This document shows positions 12,092 to 31,075 of a DNA stretch of 64,000 bases, piece by piece (position 1 is the first letter of the stretch; the number at the start of each line of letters is the position of its first letter). The stretch lies in assembly GCA_018242725.1 (NCBI GenBank), contig JAFEBI010000004.1:124001-188000 (forward strand), given 5' to 3'. The position numbers and the translations under genes were made by a program. The notes beneath the pieces were generated by a model. The model saw only the letters and a program-made list of their open reading frames with translations. It made no database searches and was not told where the DNA came from. Source of the stretch: Nitrospira sp. (GTDB taxonomy: Bacteria > Nitrospirota > Nitrospiria > Nitrospirales > Nitrospiraceae).

Positions 12092-13288
12092 CTAGTCGAC
12101 CTGCTTACGAAGAAATGTCGGGACATCCCATTCGTCTTCAGCCGTCATTGCCGCGCGATCCGTCGGGTCACGCATCTCCGTCATACGCCGTAAAAATGTT
12201 GGCCGGTCGAGATCTTTTACTGGTCGATCCACGGCAAGGGAGGCCACCATGCCTGCCAGAAGCGGCTGGATTGGTTTGGCGGGCCGATTCGCTCCTCGAT
12301 CACCTGCTATGGGAGCCGCAGGCTGATCTTCCTCTCGCTCAAACCCAGTGGCAATCACCGTAATAATGAGATCTTCTCCCATCTCGGGATTGATCACCTG
12401 CCCGACGATGATATTGGCTTCCGAGTCGGCCGTCTGTTGGATAATACTGGCAGCCTCTTCCACTTCGTGCAGCGATAAACTACCCCCCCCCGTTATATTA
12501 AGGAGAACTCCTCGGGCTCCTTCCACACTACCTTCCTCAAGAAGTGGGCTGCACATCGCCTTCTGAGCCGCCTCAATCGCTCGATTCGGACCGCGTGACA
12601 CGCCCATTCCCATGACGGCACGGCCGGTATGTGACATCACCGTACGCACGTCGGCAAAATCGACGTTGACATGGCCTGTCGTCGTAATCACGTCGGCAAT
12701 CCCTTGAATGGCTTGCCGCAGGACGTCATCCGCCACCTTGAAGGCCTCTAACAGCGGGGTTGATTTATCGACGATTCCCAAGAGCCGTTGATTGGGGATC
12801 ACCAGCAAGGTATCCACATGCCGACGCATGTCGCGGATTCCCTCCTCGGCATGTTTATTTCTCCGTTGGCCTTCATACTGAAACGGCTTCGTCACGACGC
12901 CCACCGTCAAAATTCCCATTTCTCGCGCAATGCTGGCGACAATGGGAGCGGCTCCGGTCCCGGTTCCTCCCCCCATGCCGGCCGTGACGAACACCATATC
13001 CGCTCCCTCCAGGCATTCACGGATATGCTCCTTGCTTTCAAGCGCGGCGTCCCGTCCGATTTCCGGTTTTGCGCCAGCGCCTAACCCCCGCGTCCGCTCC
13101 GGCCCAAGCTGGATTTTGTATGGGGCCAGAGAGCGATCCAACGCCTGCAGATCGGTGTTGCTGGCGATAAAATCGACACGCGCGAGGCCTGAGGTGATCA
13201 TCGTATTGATGGCATTGCATCCCGCTCCGCCTATTCCGATCACCTTAATCCGGACAGGTGACAACATATCTTCCTGAAATGAAAACAT
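12092..13288 (-). CDS. ftsZ: Cell division protein FtsZ
   Basis: Tubulin-like GTPase that forms the Z ring. 398 residues. The GTP-binding tubulin signature is [13 protein letters not shown], the N-terminus has [18 protein letters not shown], and the variable linker ends in the conserved tail [11 protein letters not shown], which binds FtsA. The start at 13288 is set by AGGAGGTG with correct spacing; an upstream frame extension has none. Codons near 12483-12491 form an unbroken run of nine G on the coding strand. Confidence 0.98.
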
Positions 13289-13351
13289 TGAAGCACCTCC
13301 TCGCATCACCCGCGCACCGAGCGCCTTCCGCTCGCAAGGGTTTTATTAAGG

Positions 13352-14587
13352 TTAAAAAACCTCCAACACCCGTTTCGTCCAGCTGAACATTTTTTTTGCC
13401 CAGGTCCCACCATTTCGAAGCCCCGCTGTCTCCAATTCATCGACATGGCGCCGGCCATGCAGTAGGAGACCAACCCCTGTCGAATGACTGGGATGGCCGA
13501 CGATATCTCGAAGCCCACCCACCCCTAATGGTACGCCTCGACGGGCCGGCAGGTTCAAAACTCTCTCGGCGGCATCCGGCATCCCTTCCAGCAACGAGGT
13601 GCCTCCGGTGATCACGACACCGGCCCCCAACATGCCTTCATATCCGGCACGCGTCATTTCCCTCCGAACAAGCTCGAACATCTCGTCAACACGGGGCTCC
13701 AAGATCTCCGCAATATCTCGCCTGGAAAACGTGCGTGGTGGCCGGTCTCCCACCGAAGATACCTGGACGACCTGATGACCGCTCACCAACTCGGTCCTCG
13801 CGATGCCATGTTGGGTTTTGATCCTTTCAGCCTCGGTTTGCGAGGTCATGAGCCCAATGGCCAGGTCCTTTGTTAAATTCTGGCCACCGATCGGGAGAAC
13901 CGCCGAATGACGGATACTCCCATCCAAAAAAATGGCGAGGTCGGTGGTCCCGCCCCCCAAATCTACCATCATCACACCGAGTTCGCGTTCTTCCTGGCTG
14001 AGCACGGCCTCACTGGATGCCAGCGGCTGAAGGATGATATCGACCACGTCAAGCCCTGCTCGATTCACGCTCTTCACGATATTTTGCGCGGACGTCACCG
14101 CTCCGGTAATGACATGCACGTTGACTTCCAACCGATTCCCGGACAGGCCTAACGGCTCCCGCACCCCTTCCTGACCATCCACCATGAATTCCCGAGGTAA
14201 CACGTGGAGGATCCTCCGCTCCTGCGGGATCACCGCGAGCGTACGGGCGCTTTCAATGGCTCGGTGGATATCTTCTCGAGTCACCTCCGCTCGTTTCAGC
14301 GCCACGACGCCTTTGCAGTTTTCGGCCGAGATGTGGCTGCCGGCGATGCCGGTGTACACGGAGTTGATCTGAACCGCCGCCATCAGCTCTGCTTCTTCAA
14401 CGGCCTTCTTGATGGACTCAACGGTGCTTTCAATGTCGACCACGACTCCTTTGCGCAAGCCACGTGAGGGGCTCATGCCGACGCCGATAATGTTGAGACC
14501 GCCCGCATCGGTCATTTCCGCAACGATCGCGCAGATCTTCGTCGTCCCGATGTCGAGTCCGACTAGAATTTGATCTCGCTTCGGCAC
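13352..14587 (-). CDS. ftsA: Cell division protein FtsA
   Basis: Actin-like ATPase that tethers FtsZ to the membrane. About 411 residues. Phosphate-1 motif LVGLDIGTTKICAIV, 1C subdomain after about residue 85, MVDLGGGTTDLAIF (phosphate 2), and a C-terminal amphipathic stretch KKMFSWTKRVLEVF that fits the membrane-targeting helix. Two GTG starts are possible: 14596 overlaps the ftsQ stop, but 14587 lies 8 bases after GGAGGG and is preferred. Confidence 0.96.
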   Translation of the reverse strand: MPKRDQILVGLDIGTTKICAIVAEMTDAGGLNIIGVGMSPSRGLRKGVVVDIESTVESIKKAVEEAELMAAVQINSVYTGIAGSHISAENCKGVVALKRAEVTREDIHRAIESARTLAVIPQERRILHVLPREFMVDGQEGVREPLGLSGNRLEVNVHVITGAVTSAQNIVKSVNRAGLDVVDIILQPLASSEAVLSQEERELGVMMVDLGGGTTDLAIFLDGSIRHSAVLPIGGQNLTKDLAIGLMTSQTEAERIKTQHGIARTELVSGHQVVQVSSVGDRPPRTFSRRDIAEILEPRVDEMFELVRREMTRAGYEGMLGAGVVITGGTSLLEGMPDAAERVLNLPARRGVPLGVGGLRDIVGHPSHSTGVGLLLHGRRHVDELETAGLRNGGTWAKKMFSWTKRVLEVF

Positions 14588-14592
14588 CGCAA

Positions 14593-15453
14593 TCACCCTC
14601 CGCTTTCCCGTACGATGATTCGATTATCGTACCGGAGATCTACTTCACTGACCGCCCGCCCCGCCCCGTCAAAATTTAGTGATTTCAACGTTGGTTTGAC
14701 GCGTTGGAACCGCTCCCACTGCTCCTCAACCGATTCCTCTCCAAATCGAAATCGAACGCCCTGTATGAGCGCCACAAGATTTGCTTGGTTTTCAGCCTGT
14801 ACCCGCAACCTCCCATCGAAGGTGTGCCCAATGACTCTTGCGAGTTCGATGCCAGACATGATTGAGCGCCGCACCACGTCGGTCCCCTTCAGCAAGCCAT
14901 CAAGATCAACTCCTGTTACGAGTGGAAACGCATCATCATCAGCCTGCCCCAGCTTGGTTAGGACATGCCCTTCTTCATCACTCAGAAAGTTCTGCGATGC
15001 CGACCGGACGATCGCGGCAGGCTTTCGTTCGATCACCAAGATCTTCAACTCATGAAACGGGACTCGCGAGACTTGAGCCTCTTTGATCCAGGGATGAACC
15101 TCGATCCGCTCTTCGACGGTGGCGGTCGCGACCTGATAGAGGGGCATCCCGCGCCTGACCTGAGCCAGCTCGATCACCTTCTGCTTATCAAGATGATGCA
15201 CGCCTTCAACGGTGATCGTGTGGATCTCAAGCAATTCACGAGCTATGCGGCTGGAGTACGTCACGGCCATTGTGATCAGCCACCCAAGAATCGCCAGACC
15301 GGCCACAACCGCACCGAGACGCACCGCGACCCTTCGCTTAGCCGCTGGCATCCGCCCAACTTGGATCACCGCCCTTTCCCCTGATGAATCCTTCCAACGA
15401 TTCAGGCGCGGGACTGCAGGCGCGGCTCGACGTGTTCTAAAAGAGACTCTCAT
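14593..15453 (-). CDS. ftsQ: Cell division protein FtsQ
   Basis: Bitopic divisome protein of 286 residues: a basic cytoplasmic N-terminus, one membrane helix (about 47-67, VRLGAVVAGLAILGWLITMA), then a POTRA domain (IHTITVEGVHHLDKQKVIEL) and the FtsQ beta domain. The ATG at 15453 overlaps the ddl stop as ATGA, favouring this start over one 33 bases upstream. Order ddl-ftsQ-ftsA-ftsZ is the classical one. Confidence 0.93.
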   Translation of the reverse strand: MRVSFRTRRAAPAVPRLNRWKDSSGERAVIQVGRMPAAKRRVAVRLGAVVAGLAILGWLITMAVTYSSRIARELLEIHTITVEGVHHLDKQKVIELAQVRRGMPLYQVATATVEERIEVHPWIKEAQVSRVPFHELKILVIERKPAAIVRSASQNFLSDEEGHVLTKLGQADDDAFPLVTGVDLDGLLKGTDVVRRSIMSGIELARVIGHTFDGRLRVQAENQANLVALIQGVRFRFGEESVEEQWERFQRVKPTLKSLNFDGAGRAVSEVDLRYDNRIIVRESGG

Positions 15454-16436
15454 GACACAGACTCCGGCTCGGCACGCTGAGCCCATTGAGCGGCACGATC
15501 CAGTGCCGACCGTAAGATCCGCTCGACCAAGTCGTCGTACCCGATGCCGGCCTGTGCGGCAGCCATCGGCAGGAGACTCGTCGCGGTCATGCCAGGAACT
15601 GTATTGATTTCCAATACATAAGGCTGGCCTCGCGGCGTGATGCGAAAGTCCACGCGCGCAGCCCCCTCGCAGCCGAGGACTTGGTAACTGCGGTGGGCCA
15701 ACTCCCCTATTTTCTGCAGCACTTTGGCCGGAAGAGGAGCAGGGCAGAGATATTGGGTCTTACCTTTTTGGTATTTGGCCGAAAAATCATAAAATCCTTC
15801 GGGGGCCACAATTTCTATGGCCGGAAGTATGCTTGCCTTGCCCATGGCTGTCCCAAGGATCGACACGGTCGCTTCGTGTCCAGAAATGTAGCCCTCCACC
15901 ATCGCTTCAGAGTCATAGCGAAGAGCCAGAGCAAGTGCCTCCTTCCACTGAGCGGCGCGACGCACAACCGTGACACCGATCGTGGAGCCTTGCGACACCG
16001 GCTTGACGACAATAGGTAACTGAAGCTTGGCCTCCTTCAGAGCCTTCGCCAGCGAAGGCCTCTCTCCATCACGGATAACCGTTCCAGAAGGAACCGGGAT
16101 CCCATGTGCGGCCAACAATGTTTTCGTCATCACTTTGTGCATACCCACGGCACTAGCCCGAACGCCTGACCCTGTGTATGGAATCCCGATGGTCTCAAGA
16201 AACCCCTGGACTAAGCCGTCTTCACCCCCCAGCCCATGAAGCGAGAGAAAGGCGATGGCAACGTCCTGTTCCTTTAAGTCTTGATGCAGTCGATCACCGA
16301 CATCGATGGTCACCACATCATATCCTCGGCGGAAGAGTGCCTGATAAACCGCTTGGCCGGTCTTCAGAGAAATCTCCCGTTCGGAAGATCGACCTCCCAT
16401 CAGGACCGCAATGCGCTTATCCGTCATTCTGCCCAT
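15450..16436 (-). CDS. ddl: D-alanine--D-alanine ligase
   Basis: ATP-grasp ligase that makes D-Ala-D-Ala for the peptidoglycan pentapeptide. 328 residues with VLMGGRSSEREISLKTG at the N-terminus, the ATP-grasp lid, and EINTVPGMTATSLLP at the C-terminus. A second ATG at 16427 (MTDKRIAV) is an equally plausible start. Stop overlaps ftsQ start. Confidence 0.96.
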   Translation of the reverse strand: MGRMTDKRIAVLMGGRSSEREISLKTGQAVYQALFRRGYDVVTIDVGDRLHQDLKEQDVAIAFLSLHGLGGEDGLVQGFLETIGIPYTGSGVRASAVGMHKVMTKTLLAAHGIPVPSGTVIRDGERPSLAKALKEAKLQLPIVVKPVSQGSTIGVTVVRRAAQWKEALALALRYDSEAMVEGYISGHEATVSILGTAMGKASILPAIEIVAPEGFYDFSAKYQKGKTQYLCPAPLPAKVLQKIGELAHRSYQVLGCEGAARVDFRITPRGQPYVLEINTVPGMTATSLLPMAAAQAGIGYDDLVERILRSALDRAAQWAQRAEPESVS

Positions 16437-16456
16437 AGATACCAGGAGTCCGTACG

Positions 16457-17401
16457 TTACGCTTGCCCCACCAATTTCAGCTCCAGCTCCAACTTGAGTC
16501 CGGTCTTCCGAGCAACCTGAGCACGAACCTTTTTGATAAGAGCGAGCACATCGGTGGCACTCGCTCGCCCCTGGTTCACAATAAAATTGGCATGCTTTGT
16601 GGAGACACAGGCATCGCCGACTGAGACACCCTTGAGCCCTGCCGCCTCAACAACCCGTCCTGCTGAGTCATTGGCGGGATTTTTGAATACACACCCAGCG
16701 CTCGGGAGCGTCAGGGGCTGCGTCTCTCGCCGGTAGCGCAAATAATCCTTCACGACCTTCTCAATCTCGGCCCGTACTCCCTGCCTCAGTTGGAGCCAGA
16801 CACCGACCACGATTCCCACAGGCAATGCTGCCTGCCGATACCCGAATGAGATCGATTCCGCCGGGCAGTCCAGAACCTCACCGTTTGCGAGCACCATTCG
16901 AACGGCTTTGACGGAATCCTTCATCTCGCCCAGTCTCGTTCCAGCATTCATCACGACGCACCCCGCCACCGTCCCAGGAATCCCAGCAGCCCATTCCAAT
17001 CCCGTCAACGAGCGGCGGATGGCATGGCTAATCAATGTCGGCATACCGACACCGCCCTCGGCATAGAGCACAGCCCCGGATTCCTCCTTGATCGCACGAA
17101 GCTTTGCCAAACTGACCACCACCCCCCGAATACCCTTGTCCCGAACCAGGAGATTGGTCCCCCCCAGCACAAAGATTGGAAGCTTCTGTCCATGCGTCTG
17201 GTTGACCAACCGAGTGACATCTTCCACATCCGCCGGTTCCACGAGCACATCAGCCGGACCACCGATCCGAAAGGACGTGTACTCACTCAACGGCGCGTTG
17301 AAGCGAACCATTCCCCGAATACCGGCCACGGCGGACTGGACCTTTCGCTGTAGCCTTGTGTGTCGCGCCGCCGTCCCATGCCTGTGAGCTATACGTTTCA
17401 T
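16457..17401 (-). CDS. murB: UDP-N-acetylmuramate dehydrogenase
   Basis: FAD-dependent reductase making UDP-MurNAc. 314 residues. FAD-domain motifs SFRIGGPADVLVEP, FVLGGTNLLVRDKG, and GIPGTVAGCVVMNAGT. The residue in the position of the usual catalytic Ser is Cys (PSAGCVFKNP); Cys in this place occurs in some other MurB proteins, so activity is expected. Starts 6 bases after murC. Confidence 0.95.
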   Translation of the reverse strand: MKRIAHRHGTAARHTRLQRKVQSAVAGIRGMVRFNAPLSEYTSFRIGGPADVLVEPADVEDVTRLVNQTHGQKLPIFVLGGTNLLVRDKGIRGVVVSLAKLRAIKEESGAVLYAEGGVGMPTLISHAIRRSLTGLEWAAGIPGTVAGCVVMNAGTRLGEMKDSVKAVRMVLANGEVLDCPAESISFGYRQAALPVGIVVGVWLQLRQGVRAEIEKVVKDYLRYRRETQPLTLPSAGCVFKNPANDSAGRVVEAAGLKGVSVGDACVSTKHANFIVNQGRASATDVLALIKKVRAQVARKTGLKLELELKLVGQA

Positions 17402-17407
17402 GAATCA

Positions 17408-18883
17408 TCACGTCGACTCGAGCCGTGCAAGAATTCCAGTACCAGCTTTCCAAATGTCCCCCGCGCCCAAGGTCAATACAAGATCCCCAGCACGAAGATG
17501 TGGCAAGACCTGGTCCGGAAGGGTCTCCTTCCGTTCGATATAGGTCACTGCGGGATGGCCTGCCGCCCTCACCGTCTCTGCAAGCGCAGCCCCGGTCACC
17601 CCCGGAAGAGGTTGTTCTCCAGCCGCATAAATGTCCGTCATAAACAGGACATCGGCATGATCAAACGCGTGGGCGAACTCTCCGAGACAATCCCGCGTCC
17701 GGCTATATCGATGAGGTTGAAAGAGGGCAACCAATCGACGATCCCAGCCCTGTTTAGCCGCAGCGAGCGTCGCTCTGACCTCCGTAGGATGGTGTCCATA
17801 ATCATCGACCACCATGATCCCCCCCGCTTCGCCCCGCAAATGGAATCGGCGTTCAACACCGGTAAACGCCGCCAATCCTTTACGAATCAAATCTACCGGG
17901 ACATCCAGCTCCATCCCGATCGCAATGGCAACGAGTGCGTTCGAAACATTGTGAATCCCCGGCACCGTCAACCGGAACGGACCTAGGTTCTTCCCACGAA
18001 AATGTGCGCGGAAGTCGGCGCCCCACTGTTTGAGCACGATGTCCGTCGCCAGAAAATCCGGCGTCACTCCGTCACGTTCATGGAGTCCATAGGTGTAGTA
18101 GCGCTTGACGACGCGGGGAAAGAGCGACGCGAGGCGGTCGTCGTCTGCACATAACACCGCGACACCATAGAAGGGAATCTTATTGATAAACTCGAGAAAA
18201 CTTTCGTTGATTCGCTCCATCGACCCATAATGATCCAGGTGCTCACGGTCCAAATTCGTCACGGCGACGATGGTAGGGGGAAGGCGCAGAAAAGACCCGT
18301 CACTTTCATCTGCCTCGGCCACAAGAAGGTCGCCTCTGCCGAGCCGTGCATGGCTTCCCAATGCGTTCACTTTGCCGCCGATGACCATCGTTGGATCGAG
18401 ATCGCCCTGTGCAAGCACAGTGGCCACCATTGACGTCGTGGTGGTCTTACCATGGGCTCCGGCAATGGCGACTCCGAACTTTAATCGCATGAGCTCTGCC
18501 AGCATTTCTGCCCGCGGAATCACGGGAATTTGCATCGCTTTCGCTTTCACCACCTCAGGATTACTTCCGGCCACAGCCGACGAAATGACCACGACCTGCG
18601 CCGCGCCTACATTTGACTCATGATGGCCGATGAAGATTCTCCCGCCTAGCTCTTCCAGGCGCTTGGTGGTCTCCGAGGCGTGCAGATCTGACCCCGTCAC
18701 GGTATACCCCATTGTGAGCAGCACTTCGGCGATGCCGCTCATACCGGCACCGCCGATCCCAACAAGATGAATTTGTTCGACCTTGCGAAACATTCCCATA
18801 CGACTTACCCGTTGCCGTCCAGTAGCAGCTCGTACGCCAAGCGTTCTACCCTCCGACCTTTCTAAAAGATTGGTTGATGTCAT
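17408..18883 (-). CDS. murC: UDP-N-acetylmuramate--L-alanine ligase
   Basis: Adds L-Ala to UDP-MurNAc. 491 residues: N-terminal Rossmann domain with [22 protein letters not shown] loop [15 protein letters not shown], and C-terminal ligase domain with [10 protein letters not shown]. The ATG at 18883 has GGGAG 6 bases upstream and overlaps murG by 38 bases; this gives a 30-residue N-terminal extension before the core, so a downstream start near MFRKVEQ is also possible. Confidence 0.95.
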
Positions 18884-19970
18884 GATTCACTCCCATCATC
18901 GCGTAACACTCGCTGACGATACGCTCACCGGCGTCAATTCGTCGCATCCCCAAACTCCCGCGATGCATGCGGTCCCACCGCTGGGAGTCCGATGCGATCG
19001 CATCCACCATCTCGCTCAATCTCGCCCCTGTCAGGTCTGATTGCGGCAGCACCACGGCTCCACCGGCCGCTTCCATGGCTCGAGCGTTCTTCATCTGATG
19101 ATCATAAATGGCCGTGGGTAACGGAATCAGAATTGCGGGTTTTCCGCAAGCCGTCAGCTCAGCGATCGTCATAGCCCCAGCACGAGCCACCACGACATCC
19201 GCACTCCGTAACACGGTCGGCATGTCATACAGAAACGGGACAACGGTAGCCGAGATCCCCAGCGCCTTGTACCCTTCCCTGACCCGATCATAATCTCCCT
19301 CACCTGTTTGGTGTGTGATCGCCAGTGTGGGCAAGCGCACCATGAGTGCGGGCAATCCTTCGAGCACCGCACTATTGATCGCCTTGGCTCCCTGACTGCC
19401 CCCGAAGACCAGCAGGTGTCGTCCATTCCGCTTATTCGTCCCCTGGCTCTCGGGTTCATACCTCAGGAACTCCTGCCTGATGGGTGTTCCAACAACTTGT
19501 ACGCTTTGTCGATCAAAGAACGTCGCCGCCGATTCAAACGCCAAAAAGATCCGTTGGGCAAGTGGACCCACCACTTGGTTGGCCAAACCGGGATAGGCAT
19601 TCGGCTCTAATATCACTCGGGGGATCTTCCTCAATGCTGCCGCCACCAGCACCGTTGGGCTTGTGTACCCACCGACGCCAATCACGAGATCAGCTCTCCA
19701 CCGTCTCAGAACTTGCCATGATTGCCAAATTCCGACTGGAAGCGACAGCACAGCCTGAAGAACATCGAGTAATCCTTTCCCCATCACCGGCTTGGCCGTG
19801 ATCATGACCAGCTCGAATCCTTCATGTGCGAGCACGCGAGACTCAACACCTCGGCTCGTACCCACAAAGAGAATCTTCGTTGAAGAATCGTGCCGCAGAA
19901 ATTCTCGTGCCAGGGCAATGGCCGGATAGAGATGGCCCCCTGTGCCTCCTGCGGCAATGACGATCGTCAT
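18846..19970 (-). CDS. murG: UDP-GlcNAc:lipid I N-acetylglucosaminyltransferase
   Basis: Makes lipid II from lipid I on the inner face of the membrane (GT28, GT-B fold). 374 residues. Donor and acceptor loops: [20 protein letters not shown] at the N-terminus, [18 protein letters not shown], and [13 protein letters not shown] near the C-terminus. The frame is open far upstream (to 21287), but that part is antisense-like shadow of ftsW; the start at 19970 overlaps the ftsW stop as ATGA and matches the family. Confidence 0.96.
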
Positions 19971-21172
19971 CGTGAACGTACCCACCCATGCCCACTCCGA
20001 TGTTCCATCTCCTCTCGTCCGGCATGCCGATCCCTGGAGATGCTCAACAACATTCCTACTCCAGCCAAGCTGACGACAAGAGAGGATCCTCCATAACTGA
20101 CGAATGGTAACGTGAGCCCTTTTGTCGGCACGAGCCCGGTCACCACACAAGCGTTGATCAACGCCTGCACTCCGATTAGTGTCGTGATACCGATTCCCAA
20201 GTACCGCCCAAAGGGAACCCGTGCGCGCGTGGAAATCTGAAATCCACGGATCATGAACAACACAAATAAGAGGGTAATGACACCGGTACCGACGAACCCC
20301 AGCTCTTCGCCGATGAGCGCCAAGACAAAGTCTGTGTGTGCTTCGGGAAGAAAAAAGAGTTTCTGTTTCCCTTCTCCCAACCCTACTCCAAAAAGGCCGC
20401 CGCTGCCGAACGCCAGAAATGATTGAGTAATCTGAAATCCTGTATCGGATGCATCGCTCCATGGCTGCAAGAACGCCATGAGTCGTTGTCGGCGATACTC
20501 GGTAGACAAGACGAGCGCCAGTCCAATTGGTATCGCACAGAGCACCAATGTTGACAGATGAGACAGGCGTGCCCCCCCCACGAATAGAAGACTGCCCGTG
20601 ACCACCCCTAACACCACGACCGTTCCCAAATCCGGCTCCATCAGAACCAATCCGCTGAGAAGGCCAACAACAAGCAACACTGGGAGTAGCCCTGTCTGAA
20701 AGTCTTGGATCCTGCCTTCCTTTCTTGTTAGGTACGCGGCGAGATAGATCACCACACCCAGCTTCAACATCTCGGCAGGCTGAATCGAGAGCGGCCCTGC
20801 CCCTAGCCACCGTCTGGCTCCGTTGGCGGCCATCCCCAACGAGGGAATCAATACCATGATCAGGAGCGCCGTCATACCCCCAAGCAGCGGAATGGACAAC
20901 CGTTTCCACCAGACATAGTCGACGCGAGACAGCACGTGGAGAAGGCTCAACCCCACCACCAACCAGACGCACTGCCTCTTGAGGTAGTACCAGGAATCGT
21001 GATATCGATTGCCTGCCAGTACCGCACTCGCACTGAACACCATGACCAAGCCGACAATTGTCAGCATCACCGTCACGCATAACAAGACTTGATCCATCCC
21101 AACCCGCGGCGAAACCCGCGAGCCATTCGAGATCCAAGGTAGTGCCAAAGTCCCAGCTTCTTTCTTTGACAT
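19967..21172 (-). CDS. ftsW: Lipid II polymerase / division protein FtsW
   Basis: SEDS-family glycosyltransferase that polymerises septal peptidoglycan with FtsI. 401 residues with about ten membrane segments. Family hallmarks visible: QPAEMLKLGVVIYLAAYL, the catalytic-loop Asp in VLMEPDLGTVVVLG, EAHTDFVLALIGEELGFVG, and PFVSYGGSSLV at the C-terminus. Located between murD and murG, as usual. Confidence 0.96.
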   Translation of the reverse strand: MSKKEAGTLALPWISNGSRVSPRVGMDQVLLCVTVMLTIVGLVMVFSASAVLAGNRYHDSWYYLKRQCVWLVVGLSLLHVLSRVDYVWWKRLSIPLLGGMTALLIMVLIPSLGMAANGARRWLGAGPLSIQPAEMLKLGVVIYLAAYLTRKEGRIQDFQTGLLPVLLVVGLLSGLVLMEPDLGTVVVLGVVTGSLLFVGGARLSHLSTLVLCAIPIGLALVLSTEYRRQRLMAFLQPWSDASDTGFQITQSFLAFGSGGLFGVGLGEGKQKLFFLPEAHTDFVLALIGEELGFVGTGVITLLFVLFMIRGFQISTRARVPFGRYLGIGITTLIGVQALINACVVTGLVPTKGLTLPFVSYGGSSLVVSLAGVGMLLSISRDRHAGREEMEHRSGHGWVRSR

Positions 21173-21207
21173 CGTTCAGTGTCAATGCTCCGCTGTATCG
21201 CCGACCG

Positions 21208-22617
21208 TCAGGCCGGCAAAGATTGCACTGCACTCTTAAATTGTCTCCCACGGTCTTGATAATCAGCAAACATATCGAAACTCGCACAGGCCGGCGACAT
21301 CAACACGACGTCCCCCGAGCTTGCTCCCAAGGCAGCCAACTCCACTGCCTCCTGTAGGCTATTCGGCCGGTCGATGGCCCCATAACCTTGTACGGCATCA
21401 GCGATCAACGGCGCCGCCTCTCCAATTAACAAGAGGCGTTTCACCCGTTGATGGATCGCCGGAACCAACCGCGAGAAATCTCCACCTTTGTCGCGCCCGC
21501 CGGCAATCAGCCAAATCGGCTGATCAATACTGAGCAGTGCCTTCAATGTCGCGTCGACATTGGTTCCTTTTGAGTCGTTGATAAAGCGTACCCCTCGACG
21601 CTCACGGACCACCTCCAAGGCATGTTCCAGACCTGGGAACTCCTTAAGAACGCGACATACATCATCCAGAGGGCACCCACTCAACAGTGCATAGGTGGCG
21701 GCAGCCATGGCATTCTCAACGTTATGATCGCCAATGATCTTGAGTTCGCTACGAAGACAGACTTCCCGTGCCTGACCATCAATGGCCGTCATAATGCGAC
21801 CATGTTCGAGATAGGTTCCTCCTACCAGGTCCGGCGGTAACGGTGGCCGCCTCGTAAATCCAAACGTTCGAGCCTTTACGCCATGTCGTAGTGCACTGAC
21901 TCGGGGATCATCGAGATTAAACAGAGCAACATCCGATGGAGTTTGGTTCTCAAAAATCCTATTTTTTGCGGCAATATACTCTGCAATGGACTCATACCGA
22001 TCCTGGTGATCCACCGTCACATTGAGAATTGCCGCAATCCAGGGGTGAAACTGCTCAACCGTTTCGAGCTGAAAACTGGAAACTTCCACGACGGCAGCAT
22101 CGTACGGACAAGCTCGTCCCTGCTTCATTGTTCGTAACGACTGGATAGCCGCCTCACTAAAGGCAGTCCCGAGATTGCCGCCAACAAATACCCGCTTCCC
22201 ACTAGCCTGTAACATTTTCCCGATCATCGTGACCGTCGTGCTCTTCCCATTAGTACCGGTCAGTGCCAGAATCGGAACGGGCATGAATCTGGACGCAAGA
22301 TCGAGCTCGCTGATCACCTTCACGCCCCGACGGCGGACACGCTCCAACGCTTCCATCCGATAGGGCACTCCCGGACTAATGACCACTAACTCGGCCGACG
22401 TCAGAGCCGTTTCATAACTGCTTCCCAACACCACGTCGATCGCCGACTCTTCAACGGTATTGAGTACGCCAAGCAATTCCGCTCGATCCTTCCGATCGGC
22501 AACGGTCACAACCGCACCGGCTGTCTGCAGGAGATGAGCGGCGGCCACCCCACTCCGTGCCAGTCCAACGACCGTCACCCGTTTCCCTTCAAGCTGTTTC
22601 GTGTCCAGTCCAACCAT
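21208..22617 (-). CDS. murD: UDP-N-acetylmuramoyl-L-alanine--D-glutamate ligase
   Basis: Adds D-Glu in the cytosolic part of peptidoglycan synthesis. 469 residues. N-terminal VTVVGLARSGVAAAHLL, ATP loop ALTGTNGKSTTVTMIGKML, and the C-terminal part IWLIAGGRDKGGDFSRL, a MurD hallmark. Begins 7 bases after mraY. Confidence 0.96.
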   Translation of the reverse strand: MVGLDTKQLEGKRVTVVGLARSGVAAAHLLQTAGAVVTVADRKDRAELLGVLNTVEESAIDVVLGSSYETALTSAELVVISPGVPYRMEALERVRRRGVKVISELDLASRFMPVPILALTGTNGKSTTVTMIGKMLQASGKRVFVGGNLGTAFSEAAIQSLRTMKQGRACPYDAAVVEVSSFQLETVEQFHPWIAAILNVTVDHQDRYESIAEYIAAKNRIFENQTPSDVALFNLDDPRVSALRHGVKARTFGFTRRPPLPPDLVGGTYLEHGRIMTAIDGQAREVCLRSELKIIGDHNVENAMAAATYALLSGCPLDDVCRVLKEFPGLEHALEVVRERRGVRFINDSKGTNVDATLKALLSIDQPIWLIAGGRDKGGDFSRLVPAIHQRVKRLLLIGEAAPLIADAVQGYGAIDRPNSLQEAVELAALGASSGDVVLMSPACASFDMFADYQDRGRQFKSAVQSLPA

Positions 22618-22623
22618 ATCGGA

Positions 22624-23700
22624 CTACCTTAATTTGAGCGTGCTCAGACTCAATAGCGCGAGTAAAATCGCGATAATCCATAGGCGAACGACCACCTTTG
22701 GCTCTTCCCAGCCTTTCATCTCAAAGTGATGGTGAATGGGGGCCATGAGAAAGATTCGCTTGCCTCGAGACTTGAATGACAGGACTTGAAAAATGACTGA
22801 CACTGCCTCAATGACAAAGACCCCACCAACCATCAACAGAAGCAATTCATGCTTGCTGATCACCGCCACTGTCCCCAGTGCCGCCCCAAGCGGAAGCGAT
22901 CCGACGTCTCCCATAAAGACGGAGGCGGGATAGGTATTGAACCAAAGAAAGCCGAGGCTCGATCCCAAGATTGCGGCCGTGAACACCGCCAATTCTCCTG
23001 CCCCTTCGATATGCGGAATGAGAAGATATTCAGACATCAGCCGGTGACCGGTCACATAGGCAACAACAGTATAGGCCAGTGCCGTGATCATGATCGGCCC
23101 GATGGCCAACCCGTCGAGACCATCCGTCAGATTCACAGCATTGGAGCTCCCAACGATGACAATGATGGCAAACACGATGTAAAACCAGCCTAAGTCCGGC
23201 ATGAAACTTTTAAAGAACGGCACACTGAGCTTCGTGTTGTACTCCGGCAAGGAATAGAGAACCACTGCGACAATAAGCGCGACCACAATTTGTGCCGAAA
23301 ATTTTTGCGACGCGGAGAGTCCCTTCGATCGCGCTTTGATAAATTTCAAATAGTCATCGATAAACCCAATGACACAGAACCCAAGCGTGGCACCGAGTAC
23401 CAACCAGACGTGAGGGCGCGAGATGTCCGCCCACAATAAGGTCGACAGCGTCACCGCAAAGATAATCAAGATGCCGCCCATCGTCGGCGTTCCGCTTTTA
23501 GCAAGATGCCGCTTCGGTCCGTCATCCCGTACTTGTTGACCCAACTTGATTTCTTGGAGCTTTCTGATCACCCACGGAGCCAGCACAAAAGCGATCAGAA
23601 AGGCCGTGACCGCCGCATAAATAATACGGAAGCTCTGGTAGCGGAAGACGTTCAGAAAGGAGAATTGGGTGTGAAAGGGGTAGAGCCAAATATACAGCAT
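22624..23700 (-). CDS. mraY: Phospho-N-acetylmuramoyl-pentapeptide transferase
   Basis: Membrane enzyme making lipid I from UDP-MurNAc-pentapeptide and undecaprenyl phosphate. 358 residues from the ATG at 23700 (MLYIWLYPF), the family length; the longer frame to 23766 overlaps murF and is not needed. About ten membrane segments; motifs GTPTMGGILIIFAV, FIDDYLKFIKARSKGLSA, NLTDGLDGLAIGP, and the HHHFEMKGWEE loop near the C-terminus. Confidence 0.96.
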   Translation of the reverse strand: MLYIWLYPFHTQFSFLNVFRYQSFRIIYAAVTAFLIAFVLAPWVIRKLQEIKLGQQVRDDGPKRHLAKSGTPTMGGILIIFAVTLSTLLWADISRPHVWLVLGATLGFCVIGFIDDYLKFIKARSKGLSASQKFSAQIVVALIVAVVLYSLPEYNTKLSVPFFKSFMPDLGWFYIVFAIIVIVGSSNAVNLTDGLDGLAIGPIMITALAYTVVAYVTGHRLMSEYLLIPHIEGAGELAVFTAAILGSSLGFLWFNTYPASVFMGDVGSLPLGAALGTVAVISKHELLLLMVGGVFVIEAVSVIFQVLSFKSRGKRIFLMAPIHHHFEMKGWEEPKVVVRLWIIAILLALLSLSTLKLR

Positions 23701-23713
23701 ATGCCGACGAGAC

Positions 23714-25180
23714 CTATGAGGCTTTCTTTCGCGCACCCCTACGTTCTCGGAGCGCGTCTGCCACACGTTCCAATTTCATACCGCGAGATGCTTTGATCAA
23801 CACCACGTCCCCGGATTGAGCCATCGTTTTCACCACATCGGCTGCAGCGTCGGCATCCGATACTTCCATGATGTGGGACGGATCTTGCCCCGCCTCCCTC
23901 GCACCTCTGGCAAGGCTTTTCCCCAAGTGTCCACAAACCACCAGTTGGTCGATCCTCTGCCGTGCAACAAAACCACCTACCTCCTCATGCATCCGTGCGG
24001 CATTCGGACCAAGCTCCAGCATATCCCCCAAGATCGCAATCTTTTTTCCCTTCGCTCGAACCTGGCCTAGGAGCTGAACCGCGGCCGTCATCGACGCTGG
24101 GTTAGCATTGTAACAGTCGATGATGAGCTTGACCCCCTGACAAACAGCGACCTGCGACCTCATGGCCGCCGGACGAAATTTCGAAAGCCCCTGAGCAATT
24201 GCCGACCCAGATAGCCCCAGGGTCGTACCGACCGCTGCCGCAGCCAGAGCATTGACAACATTGTGCTCGCCCTGAACTCGAATATGGACATTAGTATGGC
24301 GTCTGCTTCCAGGAAGCAGCAGGCGAAACATCGTACCGTTGCGTTCGTCTGACGTCACATTCATGGCACGGACGTCGGCTTTCGCCGATAAGCCAAAAGA
24401 CACCACACGGCACCGGGCTCGCGCGGTGAGATAGTTGTAGTAAGAATCATCGGCGTTCAGGACAGCGGTCCCATTGCCTGGGAGCAGATCGAGCAACTCC
24501 GCTTTTGCTTGCGCAGAGACGTCCATGGATCCAAAAAACTCCAGATGATCAGACCCGATGTTCGTAATGATCCCGATTGTCGGCTTGGCTATTTCGCATA
24601 ACCTGGTTGTCTGACCAGTATTGTCGACTCCCATCTCGATGACCGCTCCCTGATGCCGCGCATTGAGACGGAAGAGGGTTTGCGGAACCCCCAACCGGTT
24701 GTTGAGATTGCCCTCCGTCTTGAGGATCTTCCAGCGATGCGCCATGACACTGGCCACCATTTCCTTGGTCGTCGTCTTCCCATTACTGCCCGTCACGGCG
24801 ACGATCGGAATCTTGAAGCGACCCCGAAAGTATGAGGCCAGCTGTTGGTAGGCGTACAGTGGATCAGGAACACCGAGAATCATCGGCCTCATTCGTTTGG
24901 AGGGGAGCCTCCCCGCACAGAGAGAGACATCGTACGAATCAAGGACGATCGCTCCAACTGCACCACGCATCAGCGCCGCTTTGACAAAATCATGCCCGTC
25001 AAACCGTTCGCCTTGTATCGCGACAAAGAGATCTCCAGGACGAAGTGACCGCGTGTCGAGACTGATGCGCCGGACTCGTTGCTTACCCCAGGCATCTTCA
25101 TCTCCACTTAAGACCCGACCGCCGATCACTTCCCGCAACTCTTCGCCGGAAAAGAAGATCATGGCTGTACGTCCCTGCAC
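23714..25180 (-). CDS. murF: UDP-MurNAc-tripeptide--D-Ala-D-Ala ligase
   Basis: Adds D-Ala-D-Ala to the UDP-MurNAc-tripeptide. 488 residues; ATP loop IVAVTGSNGKTTTKEMVASV, then MGVDNTGQ, and DCYNANPASMTAAVQLL. The start shown is a GTG with AGGA 8 bases upstream; an ATG at 25162 (MIFFSGEEL) fits the domain start equally well. Between murE and mraY. Confidence 0.95.
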   Translation of the reverse strand: MQGRTAMIFFSGEELREVIGGRVLSGDEDAWGKQRVRRISLDTRSLRPGDLFVAIQGERFDGHDFVKAALMRGAVGAIVLDSYDVSLCAGRLPSKRMRPMILGVPDPLYAYQQLASYFRGRFKIPIVAVTGSNGKTTTKEMVASVMAHRWKILKTEGNLNNRLGVPQTLFRLNARHQGAVIEMGVDNTGQTTRLCEIAKPTIGIITNIGSDHLEFFGSMDVSAQAKAELLDLLPGNGTAVLNADDSYYNYLTARARCRVVSFGLSAKADVRAMNVTSDERNGTMFRLLLPGSRRHTNVHIRVQGEHNVVNALAAAAVGTTLGLSGSAIAQGLSKFRPAAMRSQVAVCQGVKLIIDCYNANPASMTAAVQLLGQVRAKGKKIAILGDMLELGPNAARMHEEVGGFVARQRIDQLVVCGHLGKSLARGAREAGQDPSHIMEVSDADAAADVVKTMAQSGDVVLIKASRGMKLERVADALRERRGARKKAS

Positions 25181-26733: not shown

Positions 26734-28443
26734 CTACAGCGCCATTGCCAGCGTAACGGGCTCGTCCGATGCCACACCCAAGTAACTCAACACCTGCTCG
26801 CCGACGCGGCTAAACACGGGAGCGGCCACCGTCCCGCCCCACGTATCACCCTGAGGTTCATCGATCACCACGATCATCGCCAGTCGTGGGTTATTCGCCG
26901 GGACATACCCCGCGAACGATGTCACAAACCGAGAACCCGAGTAGCTACCCGTTCGAGGATCAATCTTTTGGGCCGTGCCGGTCTTCCCAGCCACCCGAAA
27001 ACCTGGAATGGCCGCCTTTGCCCCGGTTCCATCTGTGACAACTCCTTCTAAGATGTTTGTCATCGTATGGGCGGTTTCAGGAGAAACGGCCCGTCGTCTC
27101 ACCTGGGGAGAGATTGTCTTCAGAAGTTGCCCTTCGGAACTTCGAATCTCTGAAACCACGTAGGGTCTCATCAAGACCCCTTCGTTTGCCAGAGCCGCTA
27201 TTGCGGAGACCATCTGTATCGGCGTCACACCTATTTCCTGTCCTATTGAAATCGAGGCGACAGAACGCCGCCCCCAGTCCTTCGGATGCCTGACCAACCC
27301 TGCTCCTTCTCCAGGAAGGTCGATCTCCGTCTTTTGCCCAAATCCAAACGCCTGAAGATATCGATAAAGCCGCTGCTCTCCCAATGCCATACCGGTCTTC
27401 GCCGCGCCGATGTTACTGGACTTCTGTATGACCTGCGCAAAGGAGACCCAACCCAGCTTCTCATGATCATGAATCACGGTATTGGCAACCGCCATACGAC
27501 CATGCTCTCCAAACACCATCGTATTCGGCCTCACAACCCGCTCTTCAATGGCCGCAGCCGCCATCACGGCCTTCAGTGTAGACCCCGGCTCGTACGCATC
27601 TGTAAGCGCCTTGTTTCGCCATCGATCCGGACTGAGGTTCGAGACCACGTTTGGATCAAATCTCGGACTAACCGCCATCGCCAGCACCGCTCCGGTCCGT
27701 GGATCCAAAACAATCATCGTGCCTGACTTTGCTTGAGCGCGAGTCACGGCCTCCTCAAGCTCCCTTTCCGTAATGTACTGAATCACCTCATCGATCGTGA
27801 GTGCGAGGTTATATCCCGGTGTGGGACTTCGTTCCGTCATATCCTTTGGAAACACCGAACGCCCCAGAGCGTCACGCTGGAGGACCATCATCCGCTTTTC
27901 ACCACGCAAGTACGACTCATACCGATGTTCAACACCCTCCAGCCCCTCACCATCCATTCCAGCAAAACCCAACACATGAGACAGAAATGAGCCCTTGGGG
28001 TAGAACCGACGCCCCTCCATGACGACTCCAACCCCATCGATGGATAACCGTTCCAGACGACGCCCCTGCTCAGGGTCTAACTTTCGAGCCAGCCACACAA
28101 AACTCCGTGCCTGTCGAAGCTTGCGCTCTAACTCTTCACTCCGAACTTGCAAAACAGGCGCGAGCACCCGAGCAGTTTTTGTCGGGCTGTCCAACGTAGC
28201 CGGAACCCCAAAAGCGGACGGCACTTCAACGTTCATTGCCAAGACCTTACCGTGCTTATCGACAATGGTGCCGCGCGCTCCTTCCAGTGATACCGTCTTT
28301 CGATGTTGTCGGTCCGCCTTGACCGACAGTTCAGCAGCTTGCCAGACCTGCAGTGTCACCAGGCGGAACAGAACCACCCCAAAGCCACCCAGCAGTAGCA
28401 GCAATAGGATATAGTGACGACCGACAGGAACAAAACTCGCCAC
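26734..28443 (-). CDS. ftsI: Septal peptidoglycan transpeptidase FtsI (PBP3)
   Basis: Class B penicillin-binding protein, 569 residues. One N-terminal membrane helix (about 10-30), pedestal domain, and transpeptidase domain with the serine motif STLK (YEPGSTLKAVMAAAA), SSN (KSSNIGAAK), and KTG (VAGKTGTAQK). The GTG start at 28443 shares its first base with the ftsL stop (TAGTG) and has a perfect AGGAGG. Works with FtsW. Confidence 0.96.
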   Translation of the reverse strand: MASFVPVGRHYILLLLLLGGFGVVLFRLVTLQVWQAAELSVKADRQHRKTVSLEGARGTIVDKHGKVLAMNVEVPSAFGVPATLDSPTKTARVLAPVLQVRSEELERKLRQARSFVWLARKLDPEQGRRLERLSIDGVGVVMEGRRFYPKGSFLSHVLGFAGMDGEGLEGVEHRYESYLRGEKRMMVLQRDALGRSVFPKDMTERSPTPGYNLALTIDEVIQYITERELEEAVTRAQAKSGTMIVLDPRTGAVLAMAVSPRFDPNVVSNLSPDRWRNKALTDAYEPGSTLKAVMAAAAIEERVVRPNTMVFGEHGRMAVANTVIHDHEKLGWVSFAQVIQKSSNIGAAKTGMALGEQRLYRYLQAFGFGQKTEIDLPGEGAGLVRHPKDWGRRSVASISIGQEIGVTPIQMVSAIAALANEGVLMRPYVVSEIRSSEGQLLKTISPQVRRRAVSPETAHTMTNILEGVVTDGTGAKAAIPGFRVAGKTGTAQKIDPRTGSYSGSRFVTSFAGYVPANNPRLAMIVVIDEPQGDTWGGTVAAPVFSRVGEQVLSYLGVASDEPVTLAMAL

Positions 28444-28784
28444 TAGTACCTCCTAGCCAAAAGATCGTTCTTCGCGACTCGGACTTCCACTGGCGCAGCA
28501 TCGGCCACCGCGACTGGCTGCATGCTACCCGGCCTAAACTGAACCAATATGACCTGCCCTTGCTGCGGCAAACCCATCCCCAGCTCTTTGGTCGCCAGGC
28601 GTGCGATCCGACCGGATGCGCTCAAGGTGGAAAACTGTACTTTTAATTCATCACGTTGTCGCTCCAACGCAGTTTTATCGCGCTTCAGCTGTTCGATCTG
28701 ATAACCAACTCGAACCATATCGACTCGCTCCCACACAAATCCGAACACCAAACACAGCCCAAGAAGAACAGCCAAGATTTTCAT
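28443..28784 (-). CDS. ftsL: Cell division protein FtsL
   Basis: 113-residue bitopic protein: short N-terminus, membrane helix (about 3-19), then a coiled coil (YQIEQLKRDKTALERQRDEL) and a short periplasmic tail. Sequence conservation in this family is poor; size, topology and position between rsmH and ftsI identify it. It would bridge FtsQ and FtsWI in the divisome. Confidence 0.88.
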   Translation of the reverse strand: MKILAVLLGLCLVFGFVWERVDMVRVGYQIEQLKRDKTALERQRDELKVQFSTLSASGRIARLATKELGMGLPQQGQVILVQFRPGSMQPVAVADAAPVEVRVAKNDLLARRY

Positions 28785-28792
28785 GACAACTC

Positions 28793-29710
28793 CTACTTCG
28801 ATTGACGTTCGGCAACACGCAATTTGGCGCTTCGTGACCGTGGGTTTCTCTCACTCTCTTCCCTGGATGGAACGACTGGCTTCTTCGTGCACAAGGAAAG
28901 TCGTGCCTGAGGCTCTTGCGCCAAAGACCGAAACGTATGCTTGACCATGCGGTCTTCAAGAGAATGGAAAGAAATCGCGCAGATCCTTCCCCCCTCCGAC
29001 AACACGTCGGTCGCATCTCGAAGTGACGGTTCAATGCTCTCAAGCTCTTGATTGACGGCGATGCGAATAGCCTGAAAGGTCCGTGTTGCGCAATGAATTC
29101 GACCGTGTCGATACGATGACGGCACTGAGCGAGCGATGACTGCAGCCAATGCCCCTGTCGTCTCAATCCGACAACGATGTCGTTCCCGCACAATGGCCCC
29201 GGCAATCCGCCGTGCATACCGCTCCTCTCCGAACTGATAAATAATGTCCGCAAGCACAGCCTCCGGACTGGTGTTCACTACATCAGTGGCAGTGGAACCG
29301 ATCGACTGGTCCATACGCATATCGAGGGGGCCATCTTGCTGAAAGCTGAATCCTCTAGCAGGGTTGTTAATCTGTGGAGAGGAAACCCCAAAATCAAAGA
29401 TCACTCCCCCCACGGTCGCAACACCAACTTCTGCAAGATGCTGCCTTAAGTCTCGATAATTCCCTTGGCGCAACACAACCTGATCTCCAAATCGACGCAA
29501 CCGCTGCCGACAGAACTCAATCGCTTCGGGATCGCGATCTAATCCAATGACTCTCGTTCCAGGTTGACCAGACTCCAAAAGCAGCTCGGCATGCCCACCA
29601 TACCCCACCGTACAGTCCAGAATGGTGACGGGTTGACTGGAAATAAGCCATTCGCATACTTCTTTCCCAAACACAGATATGTGCGGCGATTCGCTAGCAA
29701 TACTTTTCAC
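28793..29710 (-). CDS. rsmH: 16S rRNA (cytosine-1402-N4)-methyltransferase
   Basis: Also called MraW. 305 residues. SAM-binding VTILDCTVGYGGHAELLLE, VIGLDRDPEAI, FDFGVSSPQINNPARGFSF, and C-terminal ICAISFHSLEDRMVKHTFR. The start is a GTG at 29710: the conserved His-x-Ser-Val segment at residues 10-13 requires a start here. No clear ribosome binding site; instead the start codon lies inside the third box of the MraZ-like operator. First gene of the division cluster. Confidence 0.95.
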   Translation of the reverse strand: MKSIASESPHISVFGKEVCEWLISSQPVTILDCTVGYGGHAELLLESGQPGTRVIGLDRDPEAIEFCRQRLRRFGDQVVLRQGNYRDLRQHLAEVGVATVGGVIFDFGVSSPQINNPARGFSFQQDGPLDMRMDQSIGSTATDVVNTSPEAVLADIIYQFGEERYARRIAGAIVRERHRCRIETTGALAAVIARSVPSSYRHGRIHCATRTFQAIRIAVNQELESIEPSLRDATDVLSEGGRICAISFHSLEDRMVKHTFRSLAQEPQARLSLCTKKPVVPSREESERNPRSRSAKLRVAERQSK

Positions 29711-29733
29711 CCACTAGACACCACTTTTACCCA
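29709..29733 (-). promoter_or_regulatory. MraZ-type operator (three direct TGGGN-like boxes)
   Basis: Minus strand: TGGGT (29729-29733), TGGTG (29719-29723), TGGGT (29709-29713), each pair separated by exactly 5 bases, giving a 10-base period. This is the layout described for MraZ sites at the E. coli mra promoter (TGGGN direct repeats with 5-base spacers). The boxes lie downstream of the -10 element and run into the rsmH start codon, a repressing position. No mraZ gene is adjacent. Confidence 0.7.
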
Positions 29734-29744
29734 CCACTCGAGCG

Positions 29745-29772
29745 AGTATACTCTCGCATTTCTGGTTGTCAA
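29745..29772 (-). promoter_or_regulatory. Sigma-70-type promoter of the division/cell-wall cluster
   Basis: Minus strand: perfect TTGACA (29767-29772), 16-base spacer, TATACT (29745-29750). The predicted start near 29738 leaves a leader of under 30 bases before the rsmH GTG. It is immediately followed by the MraZ-type operator, which would block early elongation or initiation when occupied. Confidence 0.75.
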
Positions 29773-29971
29773 CTGCATTTCAGTGACTTACAGCTCGTTG
29801 CACCTGTAGATAACGTTCAGGATGGCACTCGCCATGGAGGCCAATTCTTCTGCCGTTGATAGGTCTAAGTGGCCATATCATTTACCTCTCCCCTCTCGAC
29901 TCCATCTATTCAACCCATCCAACTCTTTGAGTTTCATTGACTTCTACAACATTGAGTTAGAGAATGATATT

Positions 29972-31075
29972 ATGTGGAAAACTACCCTTACTTATTTCAT
30001 TGCAGGTCTTTCCCTTTCGATCACTACTTTATTCCTCGCACCAGGGCAAGCCATGGCGAAAGACTTCAATCCCGACAACCCACTCAATCCACCGGCTCCG
30101 GTGTTTTGGTGTCCGGACAAGACACCTGATCAGCAGATTTCGACCGGCAAAAGCTCCGGCTGCAAACCCCTCTATGACCAGAAGTCCATTGAATCGTTCC
30201 AAGAGTCCGCACGAAAGCGAGGATTTGATATCCCTGAGCGTGACCCCATCAAGATTGTCGACTTACAAAGTGCCGCTTCAAAATTTTCAGATCGCTATCG
30301 AACCTTTGTGTCCTGTTGTCTCACCGACGCCGACGCACCGGGGGATATTGTGGACCTCATCGAAGAGGCCAACCACATCCTCAAGGCGGTCCAGCAGAAA
30401 GGTATCTATAATTCGACCGGGTTTGGGAAGGGACAAGGAGCCACGACCACAGGCCCCGGAAATGGCACCGGAAATGGCGGCCTAGGCGGTGGTCCAGGAA
30501 TCGCCCCAAAACTTGGAACGTTTGCTCGTCAATTCACACTCAGTGAAATCGTTGGAACCGTCGCTCGTGCCCGTGAGGATCTGCTTCGCCTCAACGACCG
30601 CCTCGAAATGTTGAACAAAGCACATGAGGACCTCCAAGAGGTCGACTATGAGAGCAGCGGACGTGCCAGATTACGGATTCAGGAGGAAGAAGAGGCGATC
30701 AAGAGAGAATTCCAGGCGAAAAAGCCTCCCTCCGCAGCACCAACGGGAATGGATATTCAGGACACGACCTTACGATCACGAATCGGCGGGGACATTGAAG
30801 ATACTAGATTGAATGCCAACTTCGGCGCAGACATCGGCGCCTCGGTTTCTCCCTACAGCAATGTGAACGAATCACTTCGCCCTCGACGAGGGGAGACTAT
30901 TCATGACAGCCAACTTCCCCATCGACCAGGCACAGAGATCCAAGACACCACGATGTCGAGCAGCACAGGGTTTGAAGTCGACCATTCACAAAATCGTGAA
31001 GGATCTTCCACCGTTCCTCGACGGGGAGTCGGAGCCGCAATCGGCGATTCTAATCTAAACAGCCAGCGTCGATAA
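29972..31075 (+). CDS. Exported protein with C-terminal 13-residue repeats, unknown function
   Basis: 367 residues from the ATG at 29972. The N-terminus MWKTTLTYFIAGLSLSITTL is a signal peptide ending near AMAKD. Then a Cys-containing domain (two Cys flank an STGKSSG loop; a CC pair in TFVSCCLTD), a Gly-rich hinge (about 160-180), a charged coiled-coil-like part (about 200-255), and a C-terminal region of degenerate repeats starting G-x-D/E-I-x-D-T/S-x-L/M, spaced 13 or about 21 residues. The upstream frame (to 29822) contains no better start. I do not recognise the family; periplasmic or outer-membrane location is inferred. Confidence 0.85.
   Translation: MWKTTLTYFIAGLSLSITTLFLAPGQAMAKDFNPDNPLNPPAPVFWCPDKTPDQQISTGKSSGCKPLYDQKSIESFQESARKRGFDIPERDPIKIVDLQSAASKFSDRYRTFVSCCLTDADAPGDIVDLIEEANHILKAVQQKGIYNSTGFGKGQGATTTGPGNGTGNGGLGGGPGIAPKLGTFARQFTLSEIVGTVARAREDLLRLNDRLEMLNKAHEDLQEVDYESSGRARLRIQEEEEAIKREFQAKKPPSAAPTGMDIQDTTLRSRIGGDIEDTRLNANFGADIGASVSPYSNVNESLRPRRGETIHDSQLPHRPGTEIQDTTMSSSTGFEVDHSQNREGSSTVPRRGVGAAIGDSNLNSQRR

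Follow-up and report, generated by a model that had tools for sequence, protein, structure and literature searches.

A putative MraZ operator at the head of the Nitrospira division cluster, in an order whose mraZ gene lies elsewhere

The window, a 64,000-nucleotide stretch of a Nitrospira sp. genome located on contig C29, carries on its minus strand a division (dcw) cluster that starts with rsmH (mraW) and runs through ftsL, a gene for an ftsI-type penicillin-binding protein, murE, and murF to mraY, murD, ftsW, murG, murC, murB, ddl, ftsQ, ftsA, and ftsZ (Table 1). Set against the order mraZ, rsmH, ftsL, ftsI, murE, murF, the cluster is kept from rsmH onward and mraZ is absent at its head. The sequence-only reading that preceded this analysis had placed rsmH first, with no mraZ adjoining, and this is borne out by the gene reading of the window and by profile search. 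The close named relatives of RsmH from the window come from Nitrospira records, the best being that of Nitrospira sp. UW-LDO-01 (92% identity). No start farther upstream than the rsmH GTG is possible, because two codons before it the frame is closed by a TAG. Divergent from rsmH is a 417-amino-acid open reading frame (29822-31075, plus strand) without an NCBIfam match, the first part of which may be a wrongly extended start.

Read directly from the sequence, the cluster is preceded by a sigma-70 promoter, TTGACA-16-TATACT (29772-29745, minus strand), with a score of 11/12 in a promoter scan, where shuffled sequences gave an expectation of 0.3 promoter-like sites. The minus strand 3' of TATACT reads GTGGGTAAAAGTGGTGTCTAGTGGGTG, and the stretch after the promoter that holds the boxes is GTGGGTAAAAGTGGTGTCTAGTGGGTGAAAAG. 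It contains the layout TGGGT-N5-TGGTG-N5-TGGGT at a strict 10-bp period (29733-29709, minus strand). The consensus promoter, the three boxes with 5+5 spacing, and the overlap of box 3 with the rsmH GTG, by two bases common to both, had all been described from the letters of the window and hold on direct reading. At least three direct repeats with a GTG core and a 10-bp period near a division-cluster promoter, by which we recognized a MraZ operator, are present here.

Table 1. Features of the division-cluster head in the window
Feature	Position	Strand	Basis or comment
-35 hexamer (TTGACA), division-cluster promoter	29767..29772	-	direct reading and promoter scan
-10 hexamer TATACT	29745..29750	-	direct reading and promoter scan; conserved in the genus
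Predicted transcription start, ~7 nt 3' of the -10	29736..29740	-	from geometry alone
Putative MraZ-type operator, three GTGG-core boxes, 10-bp period	29709..29734	-	sequence, pattern and matrix searches
Box 1, TGGGT	29729-29733	-	
Box 2, TGGTG	29719-29723	-	
Box 3, TGGGT	29709-29713	-	
rsmH GTG start codon	29708..29710	-	box 3 overlaps by two bases
rsmH (mraW), first cluster gene	28793..29710	-	TIGR00006, 323.7 bits (cut-off, 154.3)
ftsL	28443..28784	-	TIGR02209, 44.6 bits (cut-off, 42.45)
ftsI-type penicillin-binding protein	26734..28443	-	position, and matches to transpeptidase families that stay under equivalog cut-offs
murE	25204-26706	-	profile match
murF	23714-25180	-	profile match
Remaining dcw cluster, mraY to ftsZ	12092..23766	-	named from translations and gene order, no library scan

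The exact 25-mer array pattern occurs once in the window, and with up to two mismatches two matches were found where 0.37 would be expected by chance. Across the whole 4.02-Mb genome, which was searched by pattern and not by matrix scan, a slightly looser form of the pattern has a single exact match. Among 59 genomes of the genus, 52 match the pattern with at most one mismatch at rsmH (one of them a split assembly that is consistent with rsmH), and further one-mismatch matches number about 7, against 6 for a reversed-pattern control. The array is thus the single recurrent match in the genus and lies at rsmH, so that the predicted regulon is one operon. Chance origin of the array is ruled out by the shuffles and by its conservation throughout the genus.

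When the rsmH upstream regions of the genus were read, the array was present in 51 of 54; two of the others are misplaced pieces (L020 and L022), which were left out of the counts, and the third (L069) holds an altered array. It has therefore been kept genus-wide rather than lost in close relatives. All 51 promoters scored retain TTGACA and the 16-nt spacer, and the distance from the -10 to box 1 is 7 to 11 nt. In the matrix built from these arrays, positions 1-3, 9-12, and 21-23, which belong to the box cores, never vary, and most spacer positions do. An in-frame rsmH start candidate, mostly GTG, falls inside the array region in 47 of the 51 genomes; operator and rsmH start codon are coupled in the genus, the codon usually being a GTG that a box provides or overlaps.

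MraZ is among the most conserved bacterial regulators, and its gene usually lies next to the division cluster, with MraZ controlling itself. In the genome of the window, profile search found a single mraZ, on contig C1, behind two genes named from their translations, one comF-like and the other small and of zinc-ribbon type, and away from division genes. Both PF02381 halves of the protein score above the cut-off (51.7 and 43.1 bits), as does the whole protein (93.1 bits; cut-off, 23), and each half has the D-x-x-G-R motif, as D-E-K-G-R (DEKGR) in one and D-K-T-G-R (DKTGR) in the other. On TIGR00242 the protein reaches 93.4 bits in a match that is nearly full-length and narrowly misses the cut-off of 98.35, which is an annotation threshold and not a biological feature. 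Despite that miss, the assignment to MraZ is carried by PF02381 and by the match to the solved MraZ 1n0e (E value, 6.1e-10). The sequence-only reading had left open whether the genome contains mraZ at all and had proposed searching for the same boxes in front of it; the gene is present, and a pattern search found no array before the relocated mraZ in this genome.

Separation of the two genes extends through the order Nitrospirales. The mraZ gene was found in 55 of 59 genomes of the genus and in 193 of 195 genomes of the phylum. Among phylum genomes whose listings place both mraZ and rsmH, the two adjoin on the same strand with a gap of at most 593 bp in all 72 outside the order and in none of the 30 inside it. 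Thirteen of these 30 have both genes on one contig, always at least 212 kb apart, and the remaining 17 have them on different contigs. The distance is 212 to 356 kb, with the genes on opposite strands, in 11 of the 13, which suggests one old event; the spacing appears as if large-scale gene order had been preserved since mraZ moved. In the rsmH upstream regions read in the order, mraZ does not intervene, and the promoter and array lie directly against rsmH.

Matrix scores place the array in the same way. Because the matrix derives from the 51 genus rsmH arrays, the score of those sites is circular, and that of other groups is independent. All 20 outgroup regions read upstream of cis mraZ contained the array; their median score was 17.9 (minimum, 7.7) against a median of -8.4 for shuffles, and 15 of the 20 scored above every shuffle. 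For the rsmH upstream regions of 20 genomes from the order's other genera, the median was 18.6, with 16 above every shuffle. Upstream of trans mraZ, medians were -12.4 in the genus and -9.5 in other genera of the order (maximum, -0.9), and none of the 63 regions held an array or scored above its shuffles. An array that stands before cis mraZ in the outgroups and before rsmH in the order, and that is absent at trans mraZ, would have belonged to mraZ and stayed behind. The earlier suggestion that mraZ had moved in trans is supported by the single mraZ on C1 and by the same type of array before cis mraZ in outgroups; comparison of the site in related genomes found it conserved at rsmH, with mraZ detached throughout the order, which extends a single-locus case to the whole order.

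Very probably, then, the array is a MraZ operator that was left at rsmH when mraZ moved, and MraZ controls the cluster from a distance without direct autoregulation. The mraZ gene would have left the division cluster in an ancestor of the Nitrospirales, in what we infer to be one ancestral relocation, while the operator stayed. MraZ expressed from its remote locus would occupy the three 10-bp-phased boxes immediately 3' of the -10 and would cover both the rsmH start codon and the transcription start. It would block or modulate transcription of the cluster, from rsmH-ftsL-ftsI-murE-murF to the genes that follow. With the array missing from the mraZ promoter, MraZ would no longer regulate itself directly, and direct autoregulation has probably been lost in the order. 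Control of the cluster would be uncoupled from that of mraZ by this detachment, and the single target predicted for Nitrospira MraZ makes a clean regulon to study in vitro. A literature search turned up no description of mraZ detached from the cluster in Nitrospira.

The other possibility raised from the window, that a different protein and not MraZ now uses the array in the order, is unlikely. It would accord with the loss of adjacency between mraZ and the site and with the cross-binding known for similar direct-repeat sites, as of MraZ on the HsdC site (PMC5282649). Five genomes of the order (G050, G145, G149, G198, and G210) have altered or degenerate arrays and have kept mraZ, which, with the TIGR00242 near miss, is a counterpoint to MraZ as the binder. 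Against a change of protein, an array of the same type stands before cis mraZ in all 20 outgroups read, nearly every genome of the order has kept mraZ, and no other candidate binder was found. Two of the five genomes, G050 in the genus (L069) and G145 in another family (L163), which represent distant lineages, have the middle box inverted and still in phase. Their layout of GTGG, TCCCA, and TGGG at 10-bp steps occurred in none of 10,800 shuffles, a figure that overstates the surprise because the pattern was written after these two genomes had been seen. At L167, the third box appears inverted.

The inverted boxes bear on a very improbable alternative, that the boxes are mainly a translation signal, a GTG-rich ribosome-binding and start region of rsmH, and not a protein operator. 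The in-frame start candidates in the genus arrays speak for such a signal, as do some box 2 sequences that read AAGTGGAGG and are Shine-Dalgarno-like. An inverted box that remains in 10-bp phase fits DNA read by a pseudo-symmetric domain and argues against a purely RNA signal; in the outgroups, moreover, the array usually stands apart from the mraZ start codon, at distances of up to 171 nt on its 5' side by computed start call, and an Rfam search of the array region matched no RNA family. We give least credence to the array as a functionless relic since the move of mraZ. Arrays that are degenerate or altered, as in some of the order's genera, would be expected of a relic; invariant core positions among mostly variable spacer positions in 51 genus arrays would not, when rsmH itself drops to 54% identity to the window's copy among the genomes compared.

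At the trans mraZ promoter, a further pair of features was found. In the family that contains the genus, a gene for a small HTH_17 protein (PF12728, 62.2 bits) precedes mraZ, and a palindrome, TGACA-N5-TGTCA, lies just upstream of the -35 (for example, at L047, L056, and L286). The palindrome is perfect or one position off in most genomes of the family and was unique in all eight genomes tested. In the other family of the order, neither the HTH_17 gene nor the palindrome was found at mraZ. The HTH_17 gene is intact in most of the family; in the genome of the window (C1, ~121.2-122.0 kb; L003:7252-8000), its frame is broken by an in-frame TGA and its start is apparently shortened, and the palindrome is degraded in this genome and its nearest relatives. 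Joint decay of frame and palindrome suggests that the HTH_17 protein may bind the palindrome.

A scheme that joins these parts is, as a whole, doubtful. In it, MraZ of the order would be a dedicated trans regulator without direct self-control, its level in the family would have come under the new HTH protein and the palindrome, and the operator in the genus would be fused to the rsmH start, where GTG would tune rsmH translation. RsmH modifies C1402 of 16S rRNA, a modification with effects on non-AUG initiation, and it is speculation that RsmH might feed back on its own GTG start. That idea arises from the altered non-AUG initiation reported in an E. coli mraW mutant (PMC8475190).

Several features of the Nitrospira site recall characterized MraZ systems. 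In E. coli, as Eraso et al. (2014) are cited in PMC8475190 and PMC7761207, the Pmra operator consists of repeated boxes just 3' of the division-cluster promoter, as here, and MraZ controls mraZ and the following dcw genes; by the same accounts mraZ is the first gene and self-regulating, whereas in Nitrospira rsmH is first and mraZ is distant without an array. The Mollicute site, (AAAGTGKN3)3 (Fisunov et al. 2016, in the form quoted in PMC5282649), shares with the Nitrospira array a GTG core, three direct repeats, and a 10-bp period, so that the likeness to MraZ-site geometry noted earlier stands; the Mollicute arrangement is cis and that of Nitrospira trans. PmraBc of B. cenocepacia (PMC7761207) has 7-nt repeats with 3-nt spacers, 3' of the -10 and over the transcription start, the same as here, with four repeats and mraZ in cis in place of three boxes and mraZ in trans. 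MraZ is a repressor in E. coli and M. genitalium (PMC8475190) and an activator in N. elongata (PMC9395523). The position of the array over the predicted start and early leader, as in B. cenocepacia and E. coli, favors repression, and we infer that MraZ would repress rather than activate at rsmH. In M. genitalium, an mraZ mutant was complemented only in cis, a sign that, at least in that species, trans action is not easy; regulation there reportedly depends on mraZ, operator, and cluster being linked (PMC8475190). An order with an unlinked mraZ that lacks its own operator is a natural experiment on this point and would show that not every lineage needs such linkage. In N. elongata, an ectopic copy of mraZ alters expression of the first dcw genes, so that trans action is possible (PMC9395523); that copy was engineered and MraZ activates there, whereas the detachment in Nitrospira is natural.
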